Part shown: piece after piece, positions 756 through 9,963 of the stretch
Numbering within the stretch: position 1 is the stretch's first letter
Layout of the letters: each line of letters opens with the position of its first letter
IMG/VR virus record: IMGVR_UViG_3300033148_001190
Location: 1-43,020 of that record
Source: a virus
Reading direction: 5' to 3' (one strand)
DNA length: 43,020 nucleotides
The notes under the pieces: generated by a model
The model's database searches: none
Told to the model about the DNA's origin: nothing
The model's input: the letters and a program-made list of their open reading frames with translations, nothing else
Position numbers and translations under genes: made by a program

Positions 756-1256
756 TTATGCCTCCTCTGCTTGTTCCACTTGCTTAAGTAAGTTACCTGC
801 CTGCATAGTTACAAGGCTCTGATCTCCTGCACTTACTACTTGGTTATCTATATTAGTAGTAAACTTTACAGCTACGTGCGTAGGGAGAATGATATTAACA
901 ATGTTCTGTGAATTCGTTACTTGCTCAGGTGCAGACTGCCCACGACGCTTAGCTGCATTTATTACCTGTATAGCTTTTAGGATATCCTGTGGGCGCAGTA
1001 AGAGAGCCAGCTGCCTCTCTAACTTAGCTATTAAAGAGTCCTCTAGGGAGTCATAACTAGCATCTCTATCATTATGCTTCTGTAAGTTCTGATAGCGTAG
1101 TTCGGCTACCTGTCCCGCGAAAGTCTCATTAGCTAGAAGCTGCGATATGCGAGACGGCTCTACGCCCAATGCAGCCGCTACGCTTTCAGCTGAGACACCG
1201 CTACCTAGTAATGCGAGGGCGCGGTCTTCGGTAGGAGTGTTTTTTATCTGATTCAT
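756..1256 (-). CDS. terS: Terminase small subunit-like DNA-binding protein (166 aa)
   Basis: This is the probable packaging-site recognition subunit. Residues 15-45 form a helix-turn-helix-like segment (VSAESVAAALGVEPSRISQL). A charged, probably coiled-coil middle follows (around 65-115), then a beta-rich C-terminus. HTH, then coiled oligomerisation region, then C-terminal tail is the usual layout of phage small terminases, and 166 residues is a normal size. It is the first gene of the leftward late operon, upstream of the small ORF and the large terminase. The ATG at 1256 lacks a clear ribosome-binding site; two TATAAT-like boxes lie within 25 bases upstream. The call rests on HTH plus position, not on a recognised family signature. 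Confidence 0.65.
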   Translation of the reverse strand: MNQIKNTPTEDRALALLGSGVSAESVAAALGVEPSRISQLLANETFAGQVAELRYQNLQKHNDRDASYDSLEDSLIAKLERQLALLLRPQDILKAIQVINAAKRRGQSAPEQVTNSQNIVNIILPTHVAVKFTTNIDNQVVSAGDQSLVTMQAGNLLKQVEQAEEA

Positions 1257-1302: not shown

Positions 1303-1415
1303 GTTTCACCTGTTCTTAGGGAGAGCTATGCGCTGAAAAAGTTTAGGGAATTTTAAGGTCTGGTATAGGAAAGGACACAACTTCAAAACTAAAAAGGCTC
1401 CTACCCCCTCCCTAA

Positions 1416-1677: not shown

Positions 1678-2439
1678 ATGATTAACTCTACTGATACTAG
1701 CAACAACCCTACCTCATCTAACGTACACATGGCAGACCTAAGCCGCGCTACTGCTAATGCTGTAGCCGATGCAGTCGCTACCGCCTCAGATGTTAATACC
1801 TTTAAGGAATACGACACAGCTCTGACCATTCCAGCAGTGGAGGGGTATCGCGCTGTTAAGTGTCTTTATAAGAAGAACGCTAAGACAGGCAAGGCAGCGG
1901 GAACTAATAGCTTTGTCCGTATCGCTGACCATATCACAAGCGAAGCGGTAACAGATAAGCTAGCGGGCCTCATGCCTTACCTTATAACCTACCTACAAGA
2001 AGAAGAAAACAAGGTAGTTAAGGCGAAGCATGTAGCAGGCGCTACCATCATTGACCCCGACACTATCAGCTTAGATAGCATCATTGCCGCCCTAGAATCT
2101 AGTGGCACCAACAACCGCTTGAATAAGGAACGCGTTGAAGAATGGTTTGCTGGCTCAATGCTCGAATCTCTGATGGTAGCATTTGCTGATAAGATGGGGC
2201 TATCTGATGAGCCTACGCAAGCAGAGCTGGATAAGCTGGAACAGATAACAGGTGTGTATAAAGCTAAGTTCGCCAGCCTTGCCAGTGGTAAGACTAGCTA
2301 CAGACCAGAAGAAGCTGAGTTGATGCTAAAAGCCCTAGATGTAACAGGAGCCGGAACTACTGAGATTGGTGGCCGCTTCGTGGTAAGGCTGGAGCGCATG
2401 AAGACAGTATCTACTGATGATCTTATGCTCTCACTGTAG
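1678..2439 (+). CDS. First early gene, unknown function (253 aa)
   Basis: This is the first rightward gene, with an AGGA ribosome-binding site about nine bases before the ATG and its own promoter region upstream. The protein is mostly helical, with a Thr/Ser/Ala-rich N-terminus (residues 1-45), a basic patch near 62-75 (KKNAKTGK), and an acidic helical C-terminal half. I do not recognise a family. Its C-terminal half resembles that of the 8662-9408 product: an ungapped segment with shared Ser, Ile, Leu/Ile-x-Lys-Glu and Glu-x-x-Ala positions, followed by a Lys-x-Lys-x-x-Ser segment. The two may be distant paralogues. A terminator follows immediately. Early host takeover or origin binding are possible roles, but nothing in the sequence decides. 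Confidence 0.85.
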   Translation: MINSTDTSNNPTSSNVHMADLSRATANAVADAVATASDVNTFKEYDTALTIPAVEGYRAVKCLYKKNAKTGKAAGTNSFVRIADHITSEAVTDKLAGLMPYLITYLQEEENKVVKAKHVAGATIIDPDTISLDSIIAALESSGTNNRLNKERVEEWFAGSMLESLMVAFADKMGLSDEPTQAELDKLEQITGVYKAKFASLASGKTSYRPEEAELMLKALDVTGAGTTEIGGRFVVRLERMKTVSTDDLMLSL

Positions 2440-2456: not shown

Positions 2457-2480
2457 GCCTCCTTCATTGGGGGCATTTTT
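2457..2480 (+). terminator. Rho-independent terminator after the first early gene
   Basis: GCCTCC (2457-2462) pairs with GGGGGC (2469-2474), with one U-G pair and a six-base loop, and is followed by ATTTTT. It starts 18 bases after the stop of the 1678 gene and separates that gene from the repeat-rich region beyond. Confidence 0.75.
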
Positions 2481-2542: not shown

Positions 2543-2590
2543 ATATGGCAAATCGTGCCAATGTGTGCCAACTTGCCACAATGCCAGAAC
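2543..2590 (+). repeat. Left TGCCA-box array (iteron-like)
   Basis: Five pentamer boxes: TGGCA at 2546, then TGCCA at 2556, 2566, 2574 and 2582. Start-to-start spacing is 10, 10, 8, 8. The first two form a 15-bp inverted repeat with a 5-bp spacer. The array is the mirror image of the one at 2922-2969: aligned as reverse complements without gaps, I count 34 of 48 identical bases, with all five boxes in register. Confidence 0.8.
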
Positions 2591-2830
2591 ACCCCTATAT
2601 GGGTATCCAGAGGTATATATATATCATGTATCTATCTAGCAGCTATATAGTATCTATATCTAGTATCTATCTTGTATCTATATATCTAATAGACTGTTTA
2701 TATATCTATATATTATATTCTTTAAAGATACCCTCTAAAATATACATCAATGGCATAACACACTACATAGGAGGATACTAGATACATACTCTTAGGTACA
2801 GGATATACTACGCAGTAGGATAGATACCAC

Positions 2831-2869
2831 CTATATACACACCATGTTAGATATCTAGTGTGTATATAG
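2831..2869. repeat. Perfect 12-bp inverted repeat in the AT-rich core
   Basis: CTATATACACAC (2831-2842) and GTGTGTATATAG (2858-2869) are exact reverse complements around a 15-nt loop. Nothing like a terminator T-run follows, so it is more likely a DNA hairpin or protein-binding palindrome belonging to the candidate origin. Confidence 0.6.
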
Positions 2870-2913
2870 CTGTTACCTTAGATGTACAGAGGATAGAGAG
2901 GGATATATACCCC

Positions 2914-2942
2914 TTGACCTCCTTATGGCATTATGGCATAAT
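2914..2942 (+). promoter_or_regulatory. Sigma70-type promoter inside the right iteron array
   Basis: TTGACC (2914-2919), a 17-bp spacer and CATAAT (2937-2942) form a good sigma70 promoter reading into the 3031 gene and the operon beyond. The spacer and -10 box contain three TGGCA boxes, so an iteron-binding protein would occlude the promoter. This gives a direct way to couple origin binding to transcription of the replication operon. Confidence 0.65.
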
Positions 2943-2969
2943 GGCAAAGTGTGGCAATGTTTGCCATAA
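2922..2969 (-). repeat. Right TGGCA-box array (mirror of the left array)
   Basis: Boxes: TGGCA at 2926, 2934, 2942 and 2952, then TGCCA at 2962. Spacing is 8, 8, 10, 10, the exact reverse of the left array. The outermost pair again forms TGGCA-N5-TGCCA. Conservation of orientation, number and spacing argues against chance. Confidence 0.8.
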
Positions 2970-3030: not shown

Positions 3031-3372
3031 ATGAGTAAGAATAGCGTAGATAAGAATATCCCAGCTACCATAGGTACAGGCGTAGTTGTAGAGGATGATA
3101 TTATTATATCCATAGACCCCGCGATACATGGTTACTACCTGTATTATATCCTATGCGTAGAGAAGAGTGACAAAGGTAAGCTGTTAGCTGTAAGAGTAAT
3201 GGGAGCGGGTGATATCTTAGACATGGCTCGCGAGTATACAGAAGCTACCTCTTATGTTATCTGGTACTCTCCAACAGCTATGGCGCTGCTCTCTCCTGTA
3301 GAGGAAACTACCACTACTACCCTGGCTAACATAGGCGCAAGCGTAGAGAGCGTAGGTGATAGCAATGAGTAG
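3031..3372 (+). CDS. Hypothetical early protein (113 aa)
   Basis: First gene after the iteron-embedded promoter, with AAGGA eight bases before the ATG. The 113-residue product has alternating hydrophobic strands (around 17-45 and 50-60), a short helix, a Thr-rich run near residues 93-98 and no recognised motif. It overlaps the next gene by eight bases, the start of a long chain of tightly packed, often overlapping small genes. Function unknown. Being first downstream of a promoter that iteron binding could block, it is one candidate for an origin or promoter regulator, but no DNA-binding motif is visible. Confidence 0.75.
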   Translation: MSKNSVDKNIPATIGTGVVVEDDIIISIDPAIHGYYLYYILCVEKSDKGKLLAVRVMGAGDILDMAREYTEATSYVIWYSPTAMALLSPVEETTTTTLANIGASVESVGDSNE

Positions 3373-4559: not shown

Positions 4560-4792
4560 AAAAGAAAGTATGTGTAACAGTGTATGAGAACGCTAAGTAT
4601 AAGGGTGTTAATTTCCTAAAGTTCCAAAGTAGTTATTATCCCTTTACTACTGATGGCCCTGATAGCCCTGAGCTAAAGGATATAGCAAGGAGCTTAGCAA
4701 GACACAGAAACTATACCCAAGCAGATGAACGAGCTATAGGTGAGCTAACCTACACAGGTAAGAAGTTCTACTTCAATAGGGAGCGTAGCTAA
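4556..4792 (+). CDS. Small hypothetical protein (78 aa)
   Basis: It starts in a 4-base ATGA overlap with the previous gene and ends in a TAATG overlap with the next, a pattern of translational coupling. The protein is basic and rich in Tyr, Phe, Lys and Arg, with beta strands at both ends. No motif is recognised. Confidence 0.7.
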   Translation: MKKKVCVTVYENAKYKGVNFLKFQSSYYPFTTDGPDSPELKDIARSLARHRNYTQADERAIGELTYTGKKFYFNRERS

Positions 4793-5772
4793 TGGCTAGA
4801 GTAACCTGTGCTATCAGTGGTATACAGTTCTCCTGTGACCACTTACCTATAGTTCTTACAGAGAAGTGTGGTTACATACACCCCGTCTTTGCTATACCCA
4901 GGAAGAAACTCTATGGTATATATAGCAAGCACTGTAAGAATCATCTAACTCATACAGACAGCTATCTCCTGTTCCTAGCTCTCATACATTCTACAGGTCA
5001 GGTAGAGTGGGCAGCACCAGCTAGGCTAGACCCAGAAGATAAGCAGACAGTAGCTTTCATAGAGAATAATGTAGGTCAGCTACTGCGAGTGATAGAGCTA
5101 ACAGATGCTATCCTAACCCCAGCTTTTAAGCAACCTAGCTTTGCAGTACGAGAGCATAGCGACCTGACTAAGCAACTCCCTAGCTGGATAGCAGCATGGA
5201 GAGATAACATAGCTAACTATGAGAGAGGTTATGCCTCAGATAGAGAGCGTGACTCACTTGTTAAGATAGAGAACAAACTATCCTACCTCATTAAGTCAGG
5301 TCTCGACCCTAAGTCTTATGCTAAGAATGTAGCAGAGTGGGCCTCTCGTACAGCTTGTTTCCCTGACGATGTAACAGATGAGTGGGAACGTATCATTCGC
5401 TCTTGCTTTAACTCAGAGAAAATGTTCTCTACTCCATTAGCTACTCTTAAAGAGATTAAAGCATACTGTGAGGAGAACATAGAAGCAGGGTCTATACACT
5501 TTCACGCATTGCAACGCAACCTAAGAGAAGGTATTGCACGACATACAGACTTCTTAGGTCTGTCTCCTGCACATCTAGGTTACACTCTCATGCCTATAGA
5601 CTCTACTAAGAATGATGCAGAGTTAGAAAGTATCAAGGCAGCAGCACCTACCTCAGAACCAGTGGAGTCTGACTATCCATCTAAGGTAGCCTATCTGAGA
5701 GCGAAACTCAGGTACCGCGTAGCTAAGAGTGTAACAGCACAGAGCGTAACCCCTACAGAGGAAACTATCTAA
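4792..5772 (+). CDS. Conserved-looking 326-aa protein with Cys/His N-terminus
   Basis: The N-terminal 55 residues carry Cys and His spaced like a zinc-binding module (Cys 6, 15, 27 and 48 with nearby His). A long, mainly helical body with several Trp residues follows, and then a Ser/Glu/Pro-rich linker and a basic C-terminal helix. It lies directly upstream of helicase and replication genes. I do not recognise a named family. Because no primase is visible in this window, a replication accessory or primase-like role is worth testing; the classical primase motifs are not present. It starts at TAATG and overlaps the next start at its stop. Confidence 0.75.
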   Translation: MARVTCAISGIQFSCDHLPIVLTEKCGYIHPVFAIPRKKLYGIYSKHCKNHLTHTDSYLLFLALIHSTGQVEWAAPARLDPEDKQTVAFIENNVGQLLRVIELTDAILTPAFKQPSFAVREHSDLTKQLPSWIAAWRDNIANYERGYASDRERDSLVKIENKLSYLIKSGLDPKSYAKNVAEWASRTACFPDDVTDEWERIIRSCFNSEKMFSTPLATLKEIKAYCEENIEAGSIHFHALQRNLREGIARHTDFLGLSPAHLGYTLMPIDSTKNDAELESIKAAAPTSEPVESDYPSKVAYLRAKLRYRVAKSVTAQSVTPTEETI

Positions 5773-9714: not shown

Positions 9715-9963
9715 ATGCGACAGTATCAGCCTATCTGGGAACAGATAAGAACTCATAAGAAAGCTAAGTTAATAGCTCCCTCAGATAAGCACAGAAGAAT
9801 CATTCAAGCAGTCCGTAAAGAGAAATGTAAGGACGAAGGCTTTAAACTTCTATGTGCAGAGGCAAGTAAGACTTTCAAACTGGTTGAGACTGTAGATGCA
9901 GAGAAAGGTATCATAGAATTCACATTGATAGATGTATCCGGTATATCTATTACTGATTTGTAA
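9715..9963 (+). CDS. Small basic hypothetical protein (82 aa)
   Basis: The ATG at 9715 lies five bases after the previous stop; a TTG at 9691 in the same frame would overlap the previous gene. Neither has a clear ribosome-binding site, so the start is uncertain and coupling is likely. The N-terminal 45 residues are strongly basic (Lys/Arg/His) and helical; the C-terminal half is predicted strands. A nucleic-acid-binding role is plausible but unproven. Confidence 0.6.
   Translation: MRQYQPIWEQIRTHKKAKLIAPSDKHRRIIQAVRKEKCKDEGFKLLCAEASKTFKLVETVDAEKGIIEFTLIDVSGISITDL

Follow-up and report, generated by a model that had tools for sequence, protein, structure and literature searches.

The DNA analysed here, referred to as the window, is a 43,020-nt viral sequence covering positions 1–43,020 of the IMG/VR record IMGVR_UViG_3300033148_001190. 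The terL gene is interrupted by the contig ends, indicating a near-complete genome that is either circularly permuted or a circular contig. The window is syntenic with the Pseudomonas phages 119X and PaP2 (Fredfastierviridae), with protein identities of 25–38%. In the window and in 119X/PaP2 alike, terS, terL, portal and capsid genes occur in this order, and a block running in the opposite direction encodes helicase, exonuclease, Sak4, polymerase and primase. Judged by this synteny with 119X, in which replication and structural genes follow the order of the family, the window is a podovirus and a distant relative of Fredfastierviridae. The replication proteins encoded by the phage include a family A polymerase, a DUF3987 primase/helicase-like protein, a Dda-like helicase and an SSB-like protein.

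The locus of interest is a 591-bp intergenic region between ORF 1678 (positions 1678–2439, plus strand, 253 aa) and the gene that opens the early block (3031–3372, plus strand, 113 aa), neither of which belongs to a known family. It heads the early/replication gene block encoding helicase, exonuclease, Sak4, the SSB-like protein, polymerase and primase, and lies approximately 1.3 kb from terS (756–1256, minus strand), which encodes the small terminase subunit with an HTH motif. ORF 1678 adjoins the left of the two box arrays described below, and an intrinsic-terminator-like hairpin (2457–2474, plus strand) located 3′ of this gene parts it from the array. Between terS and ORF 1678, two 14-bp direct repeats GTAGATTGTCACAT surround a TGTGAC inverted repeat (1514–1554); they are possibly an operator of a late promoter and were not seen in the relatives whose sequences were printed.

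The intergenic region contains two arrays of five TGSCA boxes each. The left array (2546–2586) has the box order ><<<< with a spacing of 10-10-8-8, and the right array (2926–2966) has the order >>>>< with a spacing of 8-8-10-10. All 11 box coordinates given in the preliminary description of this DNA, including one for a single box between the arrays, are exact, and the mirror-image relation that it reported for both orientation and spacing is borne out. The two arms (2544–2589 and 2923–2968) show 74% complementarity in a gap-free 46-nt alignment and are separated by 333 nt, in agreement with the reverse-complement match of 34 of 48 bases noted earlier. In 300 dinucleotide shuffles of the region the mean number of boxes was 1.08 and the maximum was 4, and no cluster of at least three boxes within 60 bp was found elsewhere in the window. 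A search of Rfam gave no match, a Gibbs motif search settled on the TATCTA low-complexity sequence, and a DNA pattern search with the core and array returned mostly unrelated contigs.

The 339-bp core between the arrays (2587–2925) is AT-rich in its left-central part, which contains the lowest-GC 75-bp stretch of the entire record. The core had been described as low-complexity TATCTA/TATATA DNA, which holds for its left half but not for the rest. It had also been suggested that a lone TGGCA marks the centre of symmetry; this box is present at 2751 but is not conserved in relatives, and we no longer consider it a functional part. What the relatives keep at the centre, beside this box, is (A)TATACATCAA (approximately 2740–2750) together with an AT-rich run. 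In the window, these belong to a central element, TTTAAAGATACCCTCTAAAATATACATCAA (2721–2750, plus strand), of which (A)TATACATCAA is common to the relatives with TGGCA-type boxes and a similar pattern is present in others, where the centre reads TTTTAAAG, a G/C run and TAAAATA. A loose form of this pattern (AT-rich sequence, G/C run and TAAAATA) was found in 20 of 38 loci compared with 10% in shuffles, and the central element is common to lineages with differing boxes. The position of the AT-rich sequence is equally constant: the lowest-GC 40-mer falls at 0.33–0.61 of the core in all 22 of 22 loci, and the core contains the genome-wide GC minimum in the window and in two relatives (G013 and G022). 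The AT-rich centre and the central element lie approximately 150–200 bp from either array.

Related contigs were collected via the helicase, terS and ORF 4792. Arrays that were absent, single or randomly spaced in relatives had been named beforehand as grounds for giving up the proposal; what recurs is paired, inverted and phased arrays, which occupy the same gene position as in the window. In a strict scan for box arrays, paired arrays were present in many loci and none of 112 locally shuffled regions passed. In a test for inverted arms 200–650 nt apart that makes no assumption about the box, 44 of 54 loci, a set that includes near-duplicates, scored z>3, and at least three of the loci failing this test (L066, L091 and L120) carry arrays by the strict scan. 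Mirrored TGGCA arrays are found in L010, L012, L013, L016, L007, L056, L064, L066 and L120. The same architecture is built from TGTCA/TGACA boxes in L068, L096 and L108, from TTGAC boxes in L069, L070 and L088, from TGACT boxes in L078 and L107, from GACTG/AGACYG boxes in L079, L081, L071, L100 and others, from AATCAT boxes in L089 and L104, from CTAAC boxes in L091 and from CAATG boxes in L093. The spacing is perfectly mirrored in L108 (9-8-8-8 / 8-8-8-9) and L088 (7-8-8-8 / 8-8-8-7). In Jamesmcgillvirus phages (119X, PaP2, TF17, 20Aug470 and FBPa48), a left arm of CAAGGT and a right arm of ACCTTG enclose a 300-bp core. As a separate observation, the left array of L081 and its flank are duplicated in tandem, so that the AGACT array occurs twice (1577–1718), and L083 looks alike.

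The letters of the box drift by lineage (TGCCA, TGACA, TTGAC, AGACYG, AATCAT, CAATG and CCTTGG), whereas the approximately 8-bp phasing, the inverted polarity, the AT-rich centre with its motif and a sigma-70-like TTGAC promoter at the right array only are retained. Most lineages keep a simple G-A/C-C core in the box. The idea that the boxes of B-type relatives are wholly unrelated was discarded because proper alignment revealed this core in most of them; as far as these alignments tell, outright replacement of the box is true of some lineages only. The boxes match between the two arms whereas the 3-bp spacers vary both within and between arms. Constant boxes with variable spacers argue for recognition by a protein rather than for pairing of the strands, which points to the boxes as predicted protein-read sites.

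We then considered which protein could read the boxes. ORF 1678 is missing from L054 and L056, both of which have TGGCA arrays, and it is probably not the reader because the arrays are intact in these two relatives. ORF 3916 was discarded as well, as it was not detected in L076 and L096, where the arrays are intact. The proteins common to 13 genomes are ORF 4792, the helicase, o8617, o9691 (a 90-aa basic protein), o10562, the SSB-like o14558, the exonuclease, Sak4, the polymerase and the primase. Among the universal non-structural proteins of these 13 genomes, we recognized no DNA-binding domain, and no universal family clearly tracks the box; when protein similarity was correlated with the box, o8617 was slightly favoured with a weak signal. 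AlphaFold models of ORF 1678 (pLDDT 62) and ORF 4792 (pLDDT 71) had no Foldseek match in the PDB at E<=0.001, and none of the ORFs scanned matched an initiator family of the Rep, lambda-O or gp38 type. A small basic protein encoded at 9715–9963 (YxPIW...HxRIIKAVxKEK), which belongs to no known family, is present in 13 of the 13 genomes compared and may act as the box reader or serve another core function. ORF 4792 itself (4792–5772) encodes a universal 326-aa protein of no known family with an N-terminal CAISG motif. The gp56 protein of 119X resembles it by eye (CPISG), and an HMM search gave no match between them.

The right array coincides with a promoter-like sequence. A putative sigma-70-type early promoter, TTGACC-17-CATAAT, is located at 2914–2942 on the plus strand, and the boxes at 2926 and 2934 fall in its spacer and −10 region. 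Across relatives, 19 of 22 loci have a TTGAC 11–39 bp ahead of the right array, and none has one at the mirrored left position. Because the right array lies on this predicted promoter, an operator role is also likely, by which the array would control the early promoter in addition to its predicted role in an origin.

The preliminary description had proposed that the region is an origin with inverted initiator arrays. The conservation of the arrays and the presence of an AT-rich, lowest-GC centre flanked by protein-type boxes are in line with this proposal, whereas the GC skew was unhelpful and no initiator was found. Cumulative skew, one of the checks suggested for the origin, turns at a minimum 1.3–2.3 kb to the left of the core, near terS, in six of seven genomes. 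It does not decide the position of an origin because the skew follows gene direction. Third-position skew in ORF 1678 and ORF 4792 is opposite to the simple leading-strand expectation, and codon bias is the likely cause. Shea, a Jamesmcgillvirus phage closely related to PaP2, reportedly persists in episomal form without integrating (PMC13348215). Such an episome requires a working replicon, which makes a plasmid-like replicon plausible. Weighing the sequence evidence as a whole, we consider it marginally probable that the array region is a replication origin and early-control region.

Phased, repeated boxes beside an AT-rich region are features of iteron origins, and by analogy the array region may work like one. 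It shares with iteron-type theta origins (RepA plasmids and the lambda ori) the short phased boxes, the AT-rich region and a nearby promoter that would be autoregulated. It differs from them in its 5-bp box with 8-bp phasing, in the inverted arrays on both sides and in that no Rep- or lambda-O-like protein was recognized. The oriL and oriR of the Bacillus phage SPP1 consist of repeats and an AT-rich DUE (PMC6316719). The likeness to these origins extends to repeated initiator boxes (gp38 boxes in SPP1) beside an AT-rich unwinding region and to replication proteins encoded by the phage. However, SPP1 has direct repeats and a DUE at two origins approximately 13 kb apart, whereas the window has one site with two mirror-image arrays on either side of the AT-rich centre, and no gp38/gp39-like protein was recognized in the window. 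HSV-1 oriS/oriL and the SV40 core origin likewise have short initiator boxes in inverted orientation on both sides of an AT-rich stretch, an analogy of layout only, since these viruses are unrelated and their cores are much shorter. In a limited literature search we found neither a description of the mirror-array arrangement nor a located replication origin for these podoviruses.

If the region is an origin, a phage protein would most likely bind both arrays through their 5-bp boxes, forming an ordered oligomer with one protomer per 8–10 bp. Two mirror-image complexes, opposed over a distance of approximately 340 bp, would then contribute to melting of the AT-rich centre at the conserved TTTAAA...TATACATCAA element. 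The polymerase, the DUF3987 protein, the Dda-like helicase and the SSB-like protein could be loaded at the opened centre to start replication, plausibly in both directions. Binding to the right array would also cover the early promoter, which makes it probable that this protein controls its own operon. A bolder version, which we regard as possible but rather doubtful, is a family-wide origin of undescribed design. Mirror arrays of 5-bp boxes with 8-bp phasing would face each other across an AT-rich core and be read by an initiator of unknown protein family. The specificity of this initiator would have been repeatedly rewritten (TGCCA, TGACA, AGACYG, AATCAT, CAATG, CCTTGG) while the architecture stayed fixed, and the initiator would double as the early-operon switch that allows episomal persistence. 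The arrays give a testable origin and, with the element next to terS described below, a testable packaging site for these podoviruses, and the matched box changes over relatives form a natural series for finding the box-reading protein. The results also bear on the possible episomal persistence of PaP2-like phages in Pseudomonas aeruginosa.

Repressor looping is the serious rival, given the promoter-like sequence located at the right array. In this case, the arrays would be paired operators to which a phage repressor binds, looping out the 340-bp core and shutting the early promoter. The drift of the box would represent a change of immunity specificity, and such repression could underlie a carrier-state (pseudolysogenic) persistence. 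The one-sided TTGAC and the boxes inside the promoter agree with this explanation, a purely regulatory loop would likewise account for a strong promoter in contact with one array, and superinfection resistance has been reported for Shea carrier cells (PMC13348215). A loop leaves unexplained, however, the AT-rich centre and central element that are conserved at a distance from both arrays, and no repressor-like HTH protein was recognized among the universal proteins. We judge repressor looping unlikely, though still to be taken seriously; an origin and repressor looping can both be true for one autoregulating initiator.

Another protein-organized control site with no role in initiation, for example one where a host factor bends the region for early transcription, appears improbable. 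The simple G-A/C-C core kept by most lineages would suit such a factor, but the shift to the unrelated AATCAT, CAATG and CCTTGG by lineage is unlike a fixed host factor site. Less probable again is a plasmid-style partition site, or centromere, at which an adaptor protein would bind the arrays for segregation of an episome such as that reported for Shea (PMC13348215). Among the main ORFs and the part of the small ORFs scanned, we recognized no ParA-, ParM- or TubZ-like NTPase. The model for this comparison is parC of plasmid R1, in which a promoter-containing region lies between two sets of five repeats. The five-plus-five boxes and the adjoining promoter of the window resemble parC, whereas the repeats of parC are direct and approximately 40 bp apart and those of the window are inverted and face each other across a far larger core of approximately 340 bp.

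A separate element bears on packaging. Directly upstream of terS, a highly conserved non-coding element (1336–1412, plus strand) is a candidate packaging (cos/pac) site distinct from the arrays. In 23 relatives it consists of AAAAAGTTTAG, 54–55 nt, AAAAAGGC or a similar sequence, and a C run; in the window it reads AAAAAGTTTAG, 54 nt, TAAAAAGGC and a C run. The record of the Polaromonas phage Tiera ends inside the homologue of this element, and joining its ends restores the same spacing. The study of Tiera determined genome ends with PhageTerm, and its text gives no separate result for Tiera (PMC9959647). In 28 near-complete contigs, the ends show no concentration at the core and are evenly distributed (Rayleigh p ~0.85). 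The recognition helix of TerS, SRISQLLS, is identical in genomes with AATCAT, TGCCA and AGACCG boxes, and TerS was rejected as a likely box reader since its helix does not follow the box sequence.

It is highly improbable that TerS recognizes the two arrays and that cleavage of the genome takes place in the core between them, in the manner of SPP1 pacL-pacC-pacR: protein-binding arrays about a central site near terS do recall SPP1 pac, which overlaps promoters (PMC4856287, PMC6316719), and P1 pac, and the records of PaP2 and 119X start near the centre of the region, but other PaP2-group phages read through that junction, Tiera's ends correspond to window 1336–1412 rather than to the core, and these observations with the invariant helix and the scattered contig ends largely exclude a packaging role of the arrays as far as sequence comparison can tell. 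Near record position 43802, Tiera (L036) also carries the TTATACATCA motif at the centre; the inverted elements there differ (CGATGTAC...ATGTTCGTTAT) and are separated by approximately 430 bp, and the left arm contains a tandem duplication.
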